From contig NZ_FZNQ01000018.1 in NCBI RefSeq assembly GCF_900188065.1, forward strand, positions 1-50,886: DNA of 50,886 nt. The letters run 5' to 3'. Numbering within the stretch: position 1 is the stretch's first letter; every line of letters starts with the position of its first letter. Made by a program: the position numbers and the translations under genes. The notes beneath the pieces were generated by a model. The model saw nothing but the letters and a program-made list of their open reading frames with translations. It was not told the DNA's origin and made no database searches. The stretch comes from Halorubrum vacuolatum. GTDB lineage: Archaea > Halobacteriota > Halobacteria > Halobacteriales > Haloferacaceae. Of the stretch, positions 5,568 to 13,954 are shown one piece after another.

Positions 5568-7361
5568 TTACCCCCGGGAGAACTGGCGGACGGTCATCTC
5601 GAGCGTGTCGAGGTCGAGGATCGGCGCGAACCCGGCGTCGGGATCGATGTTGACGGATTTCTGGAAGTCGGTCTGTGCCTGCCAGCAGCCGGAGTTCACC
5701 GCGAGAACGTTGTGGTACTTCCGCCAGCCGAGTTTGTGGACGTGGCCGGCGTGGAAGACGTCGGGGACGTTTTCGATGACGAGGTAGTCGCGCTCCTCGG
5801 GCGCGACCCGGGTACGACCGCCGAACTGCGGCGCGACGTGGCGCTTTTTGAGCAGTTGGCACATCGCCTTCTCGGGTTCATCGTAGCTCGCCTTCTCCGC
5901 TGGAAGTTCGGCGATCACCTCATCGAGGGAGACGCCGTGGTACATCAGGATCTCCACCCCTTCGAGGCTGACCGTGGCCGGGTTCGAGACGATCCGGGCG
6001 TCGTGGACGTCCATGATCGACCGGAGTTCGTCGTTGAAGCCGGGCTGTGGCTCCGCGAGCCTGACGGCGTCGTGGTTGCCGGGGATCATGACGATCTCGG
6101 TGTCCCCCGGAACGTCCTTGAGGTGCTCGGCGAACGCCTCGTACTGATCGTAGATGTCGACGATCTCGAGCTCCTCGTCCTGGTTCGGGTAGACCCCGAC
6201 GCCCTCGACCATGTCGCCCGCGATGAGCAGGTACTCGACCGGCGCGGCCTCCGGCGTGTGTAGCCAGTCGGTAAAGCGGTTCCATGCCTCGAGCATGAAC
6301 TCGTCGCTGCCGACGTGGACGTCGGAGATGAGCGCCGCCTGCACGTGGCGGTCCGCGAGGGTCGGCCGGCGGCTGTGTGGGACGTCCGGGAAGTGAAGCG
6401 AATCGACGAAGAGGATACCCGCGTCGTCCGCGAGCGTTCCCTCGACCGCGATACACTCGTCCGTGAGGATCTCGTCGACGACGTCCGCGAGGCCCTTGTT
6501 TTTCATCACGAGCGCGGGGAAGGTTCCGGTCGTGTCCTCCAGTTCGATGAGCCAATGGCCGGATTTCGTCGAACGGACGTCGTTCACTAATCCGATCATC
6601 GCGGCGTCGCTCCCCCCCGGCATATCCGCGATCGCCGTCGCCGGTCGATGGTTGACACGGCCCCGAAGGATCTTCGAGAGCCGCTCGTATCGATCCCGGA
6701 ACGTCCGAACGAAGTCGTCGTACTCGCCGGTGCCCGTGCTCCGGCCGGTCATGTCGTTGCCGATCTCGAGCTCCCGAGCCGATGGATCCCGTCGATGTTC
6801 GGAGCGACACCGATCGGGGGAGTCACCGACGGAGTCGGCCTCCTGTTCGCTTTCGGTCCCCTGTTCACTTTCCCGCTTCGACCCCTTCGTTTCGACTGGA
6901 ATTTCCCCCGATCCATCCCCGCCGGTCTGCCCACTGTCGTCGGGTACTTTACCTCCAGTTGAAACGGAGGGGGTGTCGGTGGAGACGGAGGAGGTGTCGG
7001 TGGGGACAGAGGACGTATCGGTGGGGACAGAGGACGTATCGGTGGAGTCGGTACGAGCGCCGGGATCCGCGGGTCCGTCGTCGACATCGTCGATATCGGC
7101 GACAGTGGATTCGAAAGAAGGGGATGGATCGCCCCCTTCGGATCGCCCTTCGATCACCGATCGGACGTGATCTGCGGTGATCCGAAGGGCGTGATCCGGC
7201 GCGTGTTCCACGACGGCGTCGATGGCGTCTCCGGGTTGTTCGGCGTTCGCGAGCAACGTGACGGCCTCACGTTCCGCGTTGTATCCACGTTCGGTCAGCT
7301 CGCGAACGATCCGAACGGTTGACTCCAGCGGCACAGTACCGCGAAGGTCAGCCGGCGTCAA
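5568..7361 (-). CDS. polD1: DNA polymerase D small subunit (DP1)
   Basis: This 597-residue subunit provides the 3'-5' proofreading exonuclease of the archaeal replicative polymerase PolD and partners the large subunit DP2, which is not in this window. The calcineurin-like phosphoesterase motifs are intact: ISDVHVGSDEF (about 345-355), LLIAGDMVEG (about 378-387), MIPGNHDAV (about 425-433), YHGVSLDEV and GHVHKLGW near the C-terminus. An OB-fold region precedes them. Residues about 100-205 are an acidic Ser/Thr-rich linker that contains four copies of a seven-residue repeat (TDTSSVP type) from a 21-bp tandem repeat, and also an embedded ORB-like sequence. The subunit looks longer than usual because of this linker. 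Confidence 0.96.
   Translation of the reverse strand: MTPADLRGTVPLESTVRIVRELTERGYNAEREAVTLLANAEQPGDAIDAVVEHAPDHALRITADHVRSVIEGRSEGGDPSPSFESTVADIDDVDDGPADPGARTDSTDTSSVPTDTSSVPTDTSSVSTDTPSVSTGGKVPDDSGQTGGDGSGEIPVETKGSKRESEQGTESEQEADSVGDSPDRCRSEHRRDPSARELEIGNDMTGRSTGTGEYDDFVRTFRDRYERLSKILRGRVNHRPATAIADMPGGSDAAMIGLVNDVRSTKSGHWLIELEDTTGTFPALVMKNKGLADVVDEILTDECIAVEGTLADDAGILFVDSLHFPDVPHSRRPTLADRHVQAALISDVHVGSDEFMLEAWNRFTDWLHTPEAAPVEYLLIAGDMVEGVGVYPNQDEELEIVDIYDQYEAFAEHLKDVPGDTEIVMIPGNHDAVRLAEPQPGFNDELRSIMDVHDARIVSNPATVSLEGVEILMYHGVSLDEVIAELPAEKASYDEPEKAMCQLLKKRHVAPQFGGRTRVAPEERDYLVIENVPDVFHAGHVHKLGWRKYHNVLAVNSGCWQAQTDFQKSVNIDPDAGFAPILDLDTLEMTVRQFSRG
6880..6902 (-). promoter_or_regulatory. ORB-like sequence inside polD1
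   Basis: Read on the minus strand this is TTCCAGTCGAAACGAAGGGG plus flanking bases. It matches the ORB just upstream of the orc1 leader (10599-10621) at about 20 of 23 positions. It lies in the disordered-linker part of polD1, about 3.7 kb from that ORB, and encodes V-E-T-K-G. It could bind Orc1 or be chance in a low-complexity region. The G-string typical of the core ORBs is absent. Confidence 0.4.
6971..7054. repeat. 21-bp tandem repeat, about four copies, in polD1
   Basis: About four head-to-tail 21-bp units of the form GGTGTCGGTGGAGACGGAGG, with variants, lie inside polD1. The period is seven codons, so the reading frame is kept and the protein gains TDTSSVP/S-type repeats in its linker. 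Confidence 0.85.
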
Positions 7362-7451
7362 AGCCGTTCCGGACGCCGGCCGGGAAGCTGACCACGATCC
7401 GTGAAACCGCGACCCGGAGACTTATCAACGGAACCCGCCAAATCCGGTGCA

Positions 7452-8555
7452 ATGGACCCTGCCGATCGGTCGCCAGCGGATGACGAGGCGGCCGAGGGGA
7501 CGGACGGAACCGATCCGGATGAACGGTCCGATCGGTCGACCGCTTCTCCCGACAAGCATGAGGGCACTGCGTCTCCCGACAAGCATGAGGACACTGCGTC
7601 TCCCGACAAACATGAGGACACTACGGCGAAACCCGGACCCGACCAGCGGGCCGAACGAACGGACGTATCCGATCGAACCGACGTGGTCGCTGGGGACGAC
7701 GGTCGGGAGGAACCCACCGGGAGTAGTGACTCGGTAGAAACGATCGGGAGCGACGATCCGAAATCTTCCGAGCGTATGCCCGTCGAGCGGCGCCGCCTGT
7801 GGGAACGGTTCCGGCATGACGCTGAAGGGCCGTTGATGTGGTTCCGCGAGATGCTCTCAAGCGCGCTCATCGTGCTGCTCATCGGGCTGGTACTGTTCGG
7901 GCTGAGCGGCGTGTGGCCACCGATGGTCGCCGTGGAGTCGGGAAGCATGGAGCCGAACCTGGAGATCGGCGACCTCGTTTTCGTGACCGAACCCGGACGG
8001 TTCGCACCCGATGCCGCGGACAACGATGTCGGGGTCGTCACATATGAGGTCGGTCAAGAGGCCGATTATCGGTCGCTCGGGTCGTATGGCTCCGTGGTCA
8101 TCTTCCAACCGCCCGATCGGGTCGGATCGCCGATCATCCATCGGGCCATGTTTCACGTCGAGGAGGACGAAGACTGGTATGATCGGGCCGATGAGGAGTT
8201 CCATCAAGCCGACAACTGTTCGGAGCTTCGCAACTGTCCGGCACCCCACGACGGCTACATCACGCTCGGGGACAACAACGCCAGATACGACCAAGTGACC
8301 GGCCTAACCGAGCCCGTCAAAGCCGAGTGGGTAACGGGCGTCGCGAGGGTTCGCGCGCCGTACCTCGGCTATATCCGACTCATCGCGACCGGCCAGGTCG
8401 CGATCGGCGACCTCCTCCCCGGCAGCCTCGTCATCGATCCGGCCCTCGAACGTCCATCGCCGATCGCTCAGACCGCACCTGATCGAACCGATGCCGGCTT
8501 CGTGAGCGCTTACCAGAACGCCGTAGAAACCTGTGCAGTCAACGGGGGCGGGTGA
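7452..8555 (+). CDS. sec11: S26 signal peptidase I (Sec11-like)
   Basis: This 367-residue membrane serine protease would cut Sec signal peptides on the outer membrane face. A single membrane segment lies at about 137-155 (SALIVLLIGLVLFGLSGVW). It is followed by the catalytic serine in MVAVESGSMEPNLEIGDLV (Ser about 165), a histidine in SPIIHRAMF as expected for the archaeal/ER type that uses His rather than Lys, and the conserved YITLGDNNARYDQ box. The cytoplasmic N-terminal 120 residues are acidic and disordered, with three SPDKHE[GD]TA repeats. The ATG at 7452 is preferred because a TATA-like CTTATCA near 7420 gives a leaderless start there. An upstream ATG at 7401 is possible. Confidence 0.9.
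   Translation: MDPADRSPADDEAAEGTDGTDPDERSDRSTASPDKHEGTASPDKHEDTASPDKHEDTTAKPGPDQRAERTDVSDRTDVVAGDDGREEPTGSSDSVETIGSDDPKSSERMPVERRRLWERFRHDAEGPLMWFREMLSSALIVLLIGLVLFGLSGVWPPMVAVESGSMEPNLEIGDLVFVTEPGRFAPDAADNDVGVVTYEVGQEADYRSLGSYGSVVIFQPPDRVGSPIIHRAMFHVEEDEDWYDRADEEFHQADNCSELRNCPAPHDGYITLGDNNARYDQVTGLTEPVKAEWVTGVARVRAPYLGYIRLIATGQVAIGDLLPGSLVIDPALERPSPIAQTAPDRTDAGFVSAYQNAVETCAVNGGG
7545..7625. repeat. 27-bp tandem repeat, three copies, in sec11
   Basis: Units start at 7545, 7572 and 7599 and share TCTCCCGACAAGCATGAGG with few changes. Each encodes nine residues, SPDKHE[GD]TA, in the cytoplasmic tail of the signal peptidase. The near identity of the copies suggests recent expansion. Confidence 0.9.
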
Positions 8556-8696: not shown

Positions 8697-10304
8697 TTAG
8701 TTGTCGAACCGAGCCTGCACGAACGGCTGGGCGTTCTCGATGTCGCCGAGGCGAGAATCCGAGAGGAGCACGGCCTCCGTCTCCTCCACGGGAACCGAGA
8801 GCCCCATCTCCTTGGTGCGGCCGTATCGTCCCTTCGAGACGACGACCGCGTTCACGATCCCGAGCATGTCGAGTTCGCTGATGAGGTCGGTCACCCGTCG
8901 CTGGGTGAGTACGTCCGCATCGATCTCCTCACAGAGGCGTTTGTAGATGTTGAACACCTCCCCGGTGTTGATGTTGTGTACGCCGTTCTTCTCGAGGAGG
9001 ATGACCGCGAAGAGGACGATCTTGCTCTGTGTCGGAAGGGTTCGGACCACCTCGACGACGCGGTCGAGTTCGATCTTGTCCTGTGCCTGCCGGACGTGTT
9101 CCTCGCTCACCGTCTCCGCCTGTGACCGTTCCGCGAGTTCGCCTGCCGTCCGGAGGAGGTCGAGCGCGCGCCGCGCATCGCCGTGTTCCTGTGCAGCGAA
9201 GGCGGCACAGAGCGGGATCACGTCGTCGGTCAGCGCGTCCGGTTTAAACGAGATGTCAGCGCGATGTTGGAGGATGTCACGGAGCTGGTTCGCGTCATAC
9301 GGCGGGAAGACGATCTCCTCCTCGCCGAGACTGGATTTCACCCGTGGATCGAGAAAGTCGGTGAACTTGAGGTCGTTCGAGATCCCCATGATCGAGATCC
9401 GCGAGTTGGTCAACTCGGAGTTCATCCGTGAGAGGTTATAGAGGGTGTCGTCGCCGCTTTTTTCGACGAGTTTGTCGATCTCATCGAGCATGATCACGAC
9501 GACCCGTTCGTGATAATCCACCGCATCGAAAAAAGTCGAGTACACGCGGTCGGTCGGCCAGCCGGTCATCGGTACCTCCTCCATGTCCTCGGCGTCGGCC
9601 TCGAGTTCGGCGATCCGTGATGCGACCGCCTCGGCGGTGGAGAACTCGGTTCGATCGAGGACGTTGGGATCCTCAAGCGCGTTCGAGTGAAGCTCACGGT
9701 AGGTGTCGAGTCGGTCGGCGATCACCCGCTCGTTCTTCTCGATGAACTTGTTTGCGAGTTGCGCGAGGACCCGGTACTGCGTGTCGGTGACCTCGCAGTT
9801 GATATACTCGACTTCGCACGGAACGTCGTATTTCTGTGAGGTCGATTCGAGCTCCTGTGAGACGAACTTCGCCGAGGCCGTCTTTCCGGTCCCCGTCTTT
9901 CCGTATATCAGGATGTTGGAGGGCGTTTCACCGCGGAGCGCGGAGACCAGGATGGTCGCCATCTGGTTTATTTGATCGGTGCGGTGGGGAAGTTCGTGCG
10001 GGGTATATGAGGGGCGAAGTACCTCCTTGTTTTCGAAGATCGGCTCGCCGGAAAGCAAGTCATCGAAGAGCCCCTGGGTGTCACTTTCCGCCTCCAAAAC
10101 GACGTCTTCGAGATCCACTGCTGGGGAGGATCGATCGCGTGCATTACTGTGTGGATCCGCCGAGTCGTGTGAATCCGCCGAGTCGTGTGAATCCGCCGAG
10201 TCGTGTGGATCCGCAGACGTTTCCGGAGTCCCATGAGGCGGTCGTGTCTTCGATCCCTCTGCCCGTCGTTCGTCGCCCTCGTCTGTAGGTTCCGAATGGT
10301 CCAT
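8697..10304 (-). CDS. orc1: Orc1/Cdc6 replication initiator
   Basis: This 535-residue AAA+ protein recognises ORBs and loads the MCM helicase. Walker A is YGKTGTGKTAS at about 134-144, Walker B is VVIMLDEIDKLV, and sensor 1 is ISIMGISNDLKF. The initiator-specific segment LDPRVKSSLGEEEIVFPPYDANQL follows, with a C-terminal winged helix (residues about 420-535) that contacts DNA. The first 85 residues are acidic and low-complexity, with HDSADS repeats from an 18-bp tandem repeat, then a conserved-looking SGEPIFENKEVLRPSYTP. It faces away from oapABC across the origin. An in-frame ORF ends one codon before its ATG, and the ORB at 10599-10621 suggests self-regulation. Confidence 0.96.
   Translation of the reverse strand: MDHSEPTDEGDERRAEGSKTRPPHGTPETSADPHDSADSHDSADSHDSADPHSNARDRSSPAVDLEDVVLEAESDTQGLFDDLLSGEPIFENKEVLRPSYTPHELPHRTDQINQMATILVSALRGETPSNILIYGKTGTGKTASAKFVSQELESTSQKYDVPCEVEYINCEVTDTQYRVLAQLANKFIEKNERVIADRLDTYRELHSNALEDPNVLDRTEFSTAEAVASRIAELEADAEDMEEVPMTGWPTDRVYSTFFDAVDYHERVVVIMLDEIDKLVEKSGDDTLYNLSRMNSELTNSRISIMGISNDLKFTDFLDPRVKSSLGEEEIVFPPYDANQLRDILQHRADISFKPDALTDDVIPLCAAFAAQEHGDARRALDLLRTAGELAERSQAETVSEEHVRQAQDKIELDRVVEVVRTLPTQSKIVLFAVILLEKNGVHNINTGEVFNIYKRLCEEIDADVLTQRRVTDLISELDMLGIVNAVVVSKGRYGRTKEMGLSVPVEETEAVLLSDSRLGDIENAQPFVQARFDN
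10149..10218. repeat. 18-bp tandem repeat, about 3.5 copies, in orc1
   Basis: Units GTGTGAATCCGCCGAGTC start at 10149, 10167, 10185 and 10203 (the last partial). Each encodes six residues of the (H)DSADS type near the N-terminus of Orc1, so the repeat extends an acidic tail without shifting the frame. Confidence 0.9.
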
Positions 10305-10307
10305 ACT

Positions 10308-10595
10308 TTATGTGTGTGTCTTCGTCGGCCGCGCGACCGGATCCGGATCGATGGTGTCCCGATCGTAATCACCGGATGCCCCACTATTCGGTGGGGTCGA
10401 TGAGATGGAGGACCCCCCTCCTCCAGCAGCGTCCGCACGGGTCTCAGATGGGGTCATGTCGGTAGGGCCAGTTATGTCGGTAGGGCCAGTCATGTCGGTA
10501 GAATCGGATCCGCCGAGTGGATCCTCGCGGGGTGTGTGAGGTTCGTCTCCGTCGGTTTCGGACGTATCGTCCGACGACGTTGTGTGTTCGTCCAT
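10308..10595 (-). CDS. Acidic leader ORF in frame with orc1
   Basis: An open frame of 95 codons that starts MDEHTTSSDDTSETDGD and ends KTHT, then a TAA and one further codon before the orc1 ATG. It is in the same frame as orc1. Its composition (Asp, Ser, Thr, Pro, Gly, with DMTGPT repeats from an 18-bp tandem repeat) is haloarchaeal and resembles the Orc1 N-terminal tail. It could be a separate peptide co-transcribed with orc1, or a former extension of Orc1 cut off by a stop codon. An ORB lies just before its ATG. I recognise no domain. Confidence 0.45.
   Translation of the reverse strand: MDEHTTSSDDTSETDGDEPHTPREDPLGGSDSTDMTGPTDITGPTDMTPSETRADAAGGGGSSISSTPPNSGASGDYDRDTIDPDPVARPTKTHT
10455..10500. 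repeat. 18-bp tandem repeat in the orc1 leader ORF
   Basis: Units CATGTCGGTAGGGCCAGT start at 10455, 10473 and 10491 (the last partial). They encode the DMTGPT/DITGPT repeats of the leader ORF. Confidence 0.85.
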
Positions 10596-10598
10596 TGT

Positions 10599-10621
10599 GA
10601 CCCCTTTGTTTCGAGTGGAAC
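10599..10621 (-). promoter_or_regulatory. Origin recognition box 1 (next to the orc1 leader ORF)
   Basis: On the minus strand it reads TTCCACTCGAAACAAAGGGG, matching the haloarchaeal ORB core shared with the pair at 11.45 and 11.67 kb. It ends three bases before the ATG of the leader ORF, so Orc1 bound here would overlap the transcription start region of its own gene. The long G-string seen at the other two ORBs is missing. Confidence 0.85.
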
Positions 10622-10964
10622 TACATCTAAACCCGCGATCGAGGCCCGTATGAGCCATGAGGCGGCGAGATATCGCCAAGAGAGGGGAAAGATGTGTCCA
10701 ATTGATGCACTCGAAGTAGACGGTGAGGTGGCACAAAAGTGTTCCTCTCTCTAACTGAAACAACGGTGTGCCGACAGCTGGACCAACGATGTATCGAGAG
10801 GGAGAGCACCACGAATCATTCGACGAGTAGTCATCCGGGTGGAGGAACCGTTATCGTAGCTAGTCATCGGTGATCGAGGGAGCCATCTCAACGGAACTGA
10901 AGTCGACCAACGGAACCGAGGCACATCAGCAATAATCGAGGATTATCACGCTGCCGGTCGTGCG

Positions 10965-11450: not shown

Positions 11451-11471
11451 ACCCCTTTGTTTCGGGTGGAG
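11451..11471 (-). promoter_or_regulatory. Origin recognition box 2 with G-string
   Basis: The minus strand reads TCCACCCGAAACAAAGGGGT followed by AGGGGGGT. It is the inverted partner of the ORB at 11673 and has the same CCCGAAACAAAGGGGT core. Confidence 0.88.
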
Positions 11472-11672
11472 CGGCGCGGAGGAGGGGGTGGGGGGAGGCG
11501 TTTCTAATACCGGTGGTTTTATCATCTCACCAGTTGAACAGCACCCTCGGTCCTCTTGTTCAGTATATTGCATAGAGGTATTGTATGTTTTTAAGCAGGA
11601 AGCTGTTCCGAGCCGGTAATATTCTCCGCCGAGTGATCCGCTCCGAACATCCAACCCCGACAACATAGTTCT

Positions 11673-11695
11673 GGTTCCACCCGAAACAAAGGGGT
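11673..11695 (+). promoter_or_regulatory. Origin recognition box 3 with G-string
   Basis: The plus strand reads TTCCACCCGAAACAAAGGGG followed by TGGGGG. It forms the inverted pair with 11451-11471. Confidence 0.88.
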
Positions 11696-11803: not shown

Positions 11804-11854
11804 ATCGTGACAATGAGCGTGATGGAACATCGTGACAATGAGCGTGATGGAACA
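11804..11854. repeat. 25-bp tandem repeat upstream of oapA
   Basis: ATCGTGACAATGAGCGTGAT plus five bases is repeated exactly, starting at 11804 and 11829. It is non-coding and lies between the origin core and the oapA promoter. Confidence 0.85.
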
Positions 11855-11956: not shown

Positions 11957-12004
11957 TATATAATCCCCCGCGCACACGCGGGGAGAACCAACATATAGTG
12001 GAGG
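11957..12004 (+). promoter_or_regulatory. oapA promoter, leader hairpin and RBS
   Basis: A TATA box (TATATAAT, 11957-11964) is followed at once by a CCCCGCG/CGCGGGG hairpin at 11966-11982. A GGAGG element at 12000-12004 lies five bases before the ATG at 12010. The RBS argues for that ATG rather than the in-frame GTG at 11998. Confidence 0.65.
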
Positions 12005-13057: not shown

Positions 13058-13954
13058 ATGCCACATCAGTGTACCTCCTGTGGGCGGACGTTTCCCGATG
13101 GCTCCAAGGAGATGCTTTCGGGCTGTCCCGACTGTGGAGGAAACAAGTTTCAGTTCAAGCCTCGAGGTCGAACCGAACCCGATGATCCCGCGGGTCGAAC
13201 CGAACCCGATGATCCCGCGGATAGATCGGGCGATCAGGACGATCAAGCGGAATCCGTGTCCACAGGACCTGTATCCCAGGAATCTACGCCCACGAAACCG
13301 AACGCGGGGGGGACTGAGTCAGACATCCCGAAGCGGAAGCAGCCCGATAACCGATCGACGGCACAACAGTCGGCTGAACGCACGGAAGCACGTTCGACCG
13401 CCTCGGGACGTTCCACCCGAAACAAGGGCGTTTCCGAAGATGTCCCTGCCCGCGAACCGGAATCCACCCCGGAAGCAACTTCCGATGCTCAAAGAGAGGA
13501 GCCCACCGCTCAGGGGACAGATCCCACTGTCCGGGAGTCCGATTCCACTGCCCGGGAGTCCGATTCCACTGCCCGGGAGTCCGATCCTTCCACCCACCGC
13601 TCAACCGACTCAGCTACCGATACGGAGCAGGTGGGGGGGAGGGAACATGAGGACACAGCTCAGGCAAGCGCCCGAACCGACGTGGTCACACCGGATGAAC
13701 TCGATCGTGCCAGCCAACCGGTTGCGACCCAGGATACCGACGATCCCGACGCCGATTCAGGGGAGCGTCCGGACATCGAGGAGTTGCGTGATGAACTGAA
13801 CGAGCAGTTCGAGAGCATCCGAATCGTGAGTCCCGGTAAGTACGAACTCAACCTGATGGAGCTGTACGATCGTCAGGAGTATATCATTTCACTGCAGGAG
13901 GACGGCAGGTACGTCATCGAAATGCCGGATGCTTGGGGTATCGACGGGGAGTAA
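13058..13954 (+). CDS. oapC: OapC, zinc-ribbon origin-associated protein
   Basis: This 298-residue protein opens with a four-cysteine zinc ribbon (CTSCGRTF then CPDCGGNKF, residues 4-31). It ends with a conserved domain of about 65 residues, PDIEELRDELNEQFESIRIV then SPGKYELNLMELYDRQEYII. Between them lie about 200 residues of acidic, repeat-built linker: two GRTEPDDPA units from a 27-bp repeat and three ESDSTAR units from a 21-bp repeat. An ORB-like sequence is embedded in the linker and encodes STRNKGV. The last codons are duplicated after the stop. It probably acts with OapA and OapB at the origin, possibly by binding DNA through the ribbon. Confidence 0.87.
   Translation: MPHQCTSCGRTFPDGSKEMLSGCPDCGGNKFQFKPRGRTEPDDPAGRTEPDDPADRSGDQDDQAESVSTGPVSQESTPTKPNAGGTESDIPKRKQPDNRSTAQQSAERTEARSTASGRSTRNKGVSEDVPAREPESTPEATSDAQREEPTAQGTDPTVRESDSTARESDSTARESDPSTHRSTDSATDTEQVGGREHEDTAQASARTDVVTPDELDRASQPVATQDTDDPDADSGERPDIEELRDELNEQFESIRIVSPGKYELNLMELYDRQEYIISLQEDGRYVIEMPDAWGIDGE
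13167..13220. repeat. 27-bp tandem repeat, two copies, in oapC
   Basis: GTCGAACCGAACCCGATGAT plus CCCGCGG is repeated exactly from 13167 and 13194. It encodes GRTEPDDPA twice. Confidence 0.9.
13410..13431 (+). promoter_or_regulatory. ORB-like sequence inside oapC
   Basis: GTTCCACCCGAAACAAGGGC followed by GT differs from ORB 3 at two of 22 positions. It lies in the linker-coding part of oapC, about 1.7 kb from the origin core, in the same orientation as ORB 3. It encodes S-T-R-N-K-G-V. The full ORB 1, translated in the frame of the orc1 leader, gives the same peptide. Confidence 0.55.
13510..13590. repeat. 21-bp tandem repeat, three to four copies, in oapC
   Basis: Units CCGGGAGTCCGATTCCACTG plus C start at 13531, 13552 and 13573, with a degenerate unit before them. 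They encode RESDSTA repeats in the linker. Confidence 0.88.

Follow-up and report, generated by a model that had tools for sequence, protein, structure and literature searches.

Upstream of orc1 in the 50,886-nt stretch of Halorubrum vacuolatum DNA analysed here (the window), a 95-codon leader ORF ends one codon before the Orc1 start, which raises the question of whether it represents a gene of its own, a regulatory leader, or a piece of Orc1 itself. The window spans the Halorubrum locus with oriC1 and orc1, and the closest named matches of its orc1 gene are from this genus. A preliminary description had reported a frame of 95 codons in the same frame as orc1, followed by TAA and then AGT before the Orc1 ATG. 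We confirmed these coordinates; all four elements, i.e. the leader ATG, the TAA, the AGT, and the Orc1 ATG, share one frame on the minus strand (Table 1). The likeness it had noted between an acidic, repeat-built leader and the Orc1 N-terminus was also found, as both are acidic and both contain in-frame tandem repeats of 18 nt. The neighbouring ORFs at 7401-8555 and 13058-13954 bear acidic, low-complexity stretches of short repeats too (SPDKHEDTA, ARESDST), so that tail-like repeats are not peculiar to Orc1 in this genome.

The open frame by itself is unremarkable, since about 10% of dinucleotide-preserving shuffles are also open over the length of the leader. The codon statistics are weak, with the frame claimed for the leader still the top-scoring of the six, because the whole tail has a lower third-position G+C content than the core (0.59 versus 0.81 in the window). 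Length alone would leave room for a chance open frame, an explanation that is ruled out by homology with relatives. It is this comparison of sequences, not the open frame, from which the putative leader derives its significance.

Table 1. Positions and properties of features in the orc1 region of the window
Feature	Positions	Strand	Remarks
Orc1, 535 aa	8697..10304	-	ATG at 10304-10302, a former internal Met; NCBIfam NF001625 and TIGR02928 above cut-off
Repeats in remaining Orc1 tail	10149..10217	-	18-nt units (DSADSH), tandem, in frame
50-nt block around the stop	10270..10319	-	38/50 identical to T1Sed10_15, ungapped, same frame; above all 150 codon shuffles
Spacer AGT	10305..10307	-	3 nt from leader stop to Orc1 start
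Leader stop TAA	10308..10310	-	CAA (Gln) in the closest relative
Leader ORF	10308..10595	-	95 codons + TAA, ATG at 10595; detached N-terminal half of the Orc1 tail; congeners start homologously (MDEGEHT..)
Leader repeats	10453..10506	-	three 18-nt units (TGPTDI/M), tandem, in frame
Start-proximal ORB GTTCCACTCGAAACAAAGGGGT	10600..10621	-	exact consensus; in front of the ancestral Orc1 start; 4-nt gap to the leader ATG
Conserved element TGCATCAATTGGAC	10696..10709	-	coincides with the predicted transcription start; leader ATG ~114 nt further downstream
Predicted orc1 TATA-like box ACTTTTGT	10733..10740	-	in an aligned promoter block; prediction from conservation alone
oriC1 core	11451..11695		inverted ORBs 11451-11472 (-) and 11674-11695 (+) flanking an A+T-richer stretch

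For comparison, we analysed 51 other Halorubrum genomes. In every one, Orc1 starts at the ATG adjacent to the ORB, typically with MDEGEHT..., and the frame is open to the conserved core. The intact tails have lengths of 105-242 residues and together comprise 7,618 codons without a single stop; the sole in-tail stop among the 52 Halorubrum genomes is the one TAA of the window. A frame similar to the leader is thus present in close relatives, and the stop is absent from all 51. Among the possibilities raised in the preliminary description, these results, together with the CAA found in place of TAA in the nearest relative, bear out a recently lost N-terminal extension. They speak against a regulatory leader peptide conserved as such, because the leader is fused to Orc1 in all 51 congeners and forms a separate ORF in no other Halorubrum.

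The Halorubrum Orc1 tail is rich in Asp, Ser, Thr, Gly, and Pro, in congeners essentially without Cys, Trp, and Tyr, and highly variable in length. The tail of the window has the same bias towards Asp, Ser, Thr, Gly, and Pro and is devoid of Cys and Trp. An AlphaFold2 model of the intact relative, weak overall (mean pLDDT 57.8, pTM 0.34), has pLDDT values <50 for residues 1-235, and the best-scoring stretches of solved relatives are all within the AAA+ and winged-helix part. The tail is long, of low complexity, acidic, and probably unfolded. Two near-identical Halorubrum tails (L028 and L027) differ by about 60 residues via expansion of a TATGSETAAGSE repeat.

Among the relatives, the Halorubrum MAG T1Sed10_15 (G071, i.e. 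L076/L120) is closest to the window, with an Orc1 that is 93% identical. Its junction codons are GAA ACA CAC ACA CAA GGC ATG GAC, compared with AAG ACA CAC ACA TAA AGT ATG GAC in the window, and the corresponding residues are E-T-H-T-Q-G-M-D-D-P-Q-P-T-D-D and K-T-H-T-stop-S-M-D-H-S-E-P-T-D-E, respectively. With this relative as a stand-in for the ancestor, a single C-to-T change turned CAA (Gln) into TAA two codons before a Met already inside the tail, and the start of Orc1 moved to this pre-existing internal Met. Only a few congeners have an internal Met anywhere in the tail. Single-base changes could create a stop at 56 positions in the T1Sed10_15 tail, and just one of these, the change seen in the window, is followed by an in-frame ATG within 9 nt. 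A stop at the sole position permitting a nearby restart agrees with a mutation made tolerable by the ability of translation to restart. The Orc1 of the window retains 88 of the ~184 tail residues and thus has a longer tail than many other haloarchaeal genera, in which 44-54 residues are found.

The regions upstream of orc1 contain a TATA-like box, whose consensus is GAGAGnAACACTTTTGTaCC in Halorubrum (38 sequences) and ttTaata in other haloarchaea (46 sequences). An element at the predicted transcription start has the consensus TGcATCAACTGGAC in the upstream regions of the same 38 and 46 sequences. No TATA-like motif was detected in the 60 nt before the internal Orc1 ATG, and no SD-like motif precedes it. 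The conservation suggests that transcription would still proceed from the old promoter upstream of the ORB and yield one mRNA. A transcription start of any haloarchaeal orc1 was not found in the literature searched. The 14-nt element itself (TGCATCAAYTGGAC; 10696-10709 of the window, minus strand) is near-invariant across haloarchaeal genera, follows the orc1 TATA-like box at a distance of ~27 nt, is better conserved than that box, and occupies the same place in most haloarchaeal orc1 loci. Its reverse complement, GTCCAGTTGATGCA, looks like half an ORB.

We consider it probable that the tail was split by the nonsense change and that the restart at Orc1 is coupled to translation of the leader, with one upstream promoter serving both. 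Ribosomes would complete the 95 codons of the leader, terminate at TAA, and reinitiate at the Orc1 ATG 3 nt further on (termination-reinitiation, TeRe); Orc1 synthesis would be coupled to leader translation, and the leader peptide would probably be a by-product without a fold of its own. Comparison at the sequence level demonstrated that leader and Orc1 tail share an origin, that the stop is a nonsense change with respect to T1Sed10_15, and that the internal Met is present in both; it also showed the spacing of +3 nt and the recurrence described below. Translational coupling, which was not among the options of the preliminary description, fits these features best.

In Haloferax volcanii, reinitiation works at such short distances, is ~60% lower at 13 nt, and has disappeared at ~22 nt (PMC10666635); an SD motif is helpful, not essential (PMC6728339). 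The junction of the window, at +3 nt, has the spacing of TeRe pairs and lies within the limits of PMC10666635. Like the TeRe gene pairs of H. volcanii (PMC6728339, PMC10666635), the window has two ORFs in the same direction, the distance from stop to start falls in the range of -4 to +3 nt, no promoter-like motif is recognizable before the downstream ORF, and an SD motif would not be essential. Unlike in these pairs, the upstream ORF is not a separate gene but the N-terminus cut from the downstream protein, and the coupling is a predicted one. The coupling that we infer would place the locus in a known kind, i.e. gene splits with translational coupling, of which the Orc1 tail form was not found described in the literature searched.

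Direct initiation at the internal ATG on a leadered mRNA, independent of leader translation, would also yield Orc1. De novo initiation on leadered mRNAs rarely involves an SD motif in haloarchaea (PMC6728339), so that this mode is compatible with the missing motif. We nevertheless regard it as unlikely, because the internal ATG is located some 400 nt into the predicted mRNA and because, in the native Haloferax pairs tested, the downstream gene was untranslated when the upstream gene was blocked (PMC6728339).

The survey also covered 49 loci from other genera, together with 116 that were retrieved in genus- and order-wide searches; the two sets partly overlap. The order ORB-ATG-Orc1 is open nearly everywhere, and two lineages besides the window have a split; the three splits come from ~200 partly overlapping loci, a subset of haloarchaea. 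Two Haloquadratum-type species, represented by the Haloquadratum MAG LUM.47 (L097) and a related genome, G088 (L141), have a 66-codon leader that begins ~5 nt after the ORB, and the junction consists of TGA, one codon, and the ATG GAT of Orc1 (TGA-NNN-ATG). In G092 (L155), a frameshift follows the ATG that is homologous to the Orc1 start of the relative G090 (L154), and the TGA of the resulting 43-codon leader overlaps the Orc1 ATG as ATGA; the Met used as the Orc1 start is already inside the tail of G090. The distances from stop to restart are +3 nt in the window, +3 nt in the Haloquadratum-type genomes, and -4 nt in G092. All of these loci share an ORF near the ORB and a stop within -4 to +3 nt of the Orc1 ATG. 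The two other lineages differ from the window in their TGA stops, in the frameshift that breaks the frame of G092, and in leaders (66 aa and 43 aa) that are unrelated in sequence and less acidic. Other candidates were rejected. The in-frame stops flagged in G132, G396, G325, and G402 precede the real start, and from the ATG next to the ORB these four frames are open; L236 was an artefact of a GTG beside an upstream ORB-like site; and L138, the only match of the stop-region pattern in viral contigs, is an unrelated A+T-rich contig.

The splits in three lineages, and the persistence of the 66-codon leader in two Haloquadratum-type species without an indel or extra stop, could indicate that selection now maintains a detached tail, either as a small protein in its own right or as a translated element that regulates the dose of Orc1. 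The Haloquadratum-type leaders of L097 and L141 differ by ~6 amino-acid-changing and 3 silent changes, compared with 6 and 32 in the Orc1 core, so the constraint on this leader looks weak. The leader of the window has no match in NCBIfam. A selected leader peptide is therefore quite improbable in our estimation.

That the TAA is a base-call or assembly error, and that the tail of the species is intact, is very unlikely. The stop rests on a single assembly of one strain, a draft of 72 contigs, and is unique among the 52 Halorubrum genomes; yet a random error is hard to square with the sole position of 56 that allows a restart within 9 nt, and comparable splits are present in the two Haloquadratum-type genomes and in G092. 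The least probable explanation, also raised in the preliminary description, is that the TAA is read through part of the time to yield a short and an extended Orc1: the frame is open through the whole tail past the stop, and an Orc1 extended in this way would be similar to that of all congeners, but the other splits have TGA (L097, L141) or a frameshift (G092), which readthrough cannot restore, the adjacent downstream ATG would be superfluous, we know of no recoding of UAA in archaea, and the conservation of the same stop and context in relatives that is characteristic of programmed readthrough was not found, the stop being absent from the 51 congeners.

The nonsense split of the tail is a genuine event in the evolution of a highly important gene, and suggests that a replication initiator can lose a large part of its long N-terminal tail in nature with survival of the gene. 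The loci represent natural cases of an ORF split exactly where ribosomes can restart, and restarts at -4 to +3 nt in three lineages provide support from natural evolution for the short-distance rule known from measurements in Haloferax. Comparison of split with intact alleles would permit direct tests of what the Orc1 tail does and of how translational coupling affects initiator dose. One speculative extension is that the disordered tail of haloarchaeal Orc1 tends to be split off repeatedly as a translated leader, that reinitiation at the split sets the amount of initiator, and that translation of the leader would thereby control the dose for oriC1 firing.

Like the Orc1/Cdc6 proteins of haloarchaeal oriC1 (NF001625; PMC3528665, PMC3936714), the protein of the window is encoded by the same gene at the same site by inverted ORBs and has an intact AAA+ and winged-helix core; it differs in the interruption of its tail by a nonsense codon and in the shift of its start to an internal Met. 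The window contains five ORB matches of a quality not expected by chance, compared with none in 100 shuffles. In all 52 Halorubrum genomes, counting the window, an ORB is located 3-8 nt before an in-frame ATG; in 42 of 49 loci of other haloarchaea, an ORB is at most 40 nt from the first ATG. The start-proximal ORB has the exact consensus in the window and in the closest relative; it is degenerate in other Halorubrum, mostly as CTGAAACAGGGGGGT or CTGAAACGGAGGGGT.

The preliminary description had located this ORB three bases before the leader and had proposed direct autoregulation by Orc1 bound over the leader start. The adjacency holds, but the gap is 4 nt and the two do not overlap (10600-10621 versus an ATG at 10595). 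The predicted transcription start is ~90 nt upstream of this ORB, which therefore does not lie over the predicted promoter. If the promoter prediction is right, bound Orc1 would be a roadblock and would not cover the promoter, and autoregulation via the conserved start-proximal ORB is putative.

Two more ORB-like sites with two mismatches each to the search pattern are present beyond the origin core, at 6881-6902 (minus strand) and at 13410-13431 (plus strand), the latter within the ORF at 13058-13954. Between the origin and a GTPase-like gene at 11998, a perfect 25-nt tandem duplication of ATCGTGACAATGAGCGTGATGGAAC occupies positions 11804-11853.
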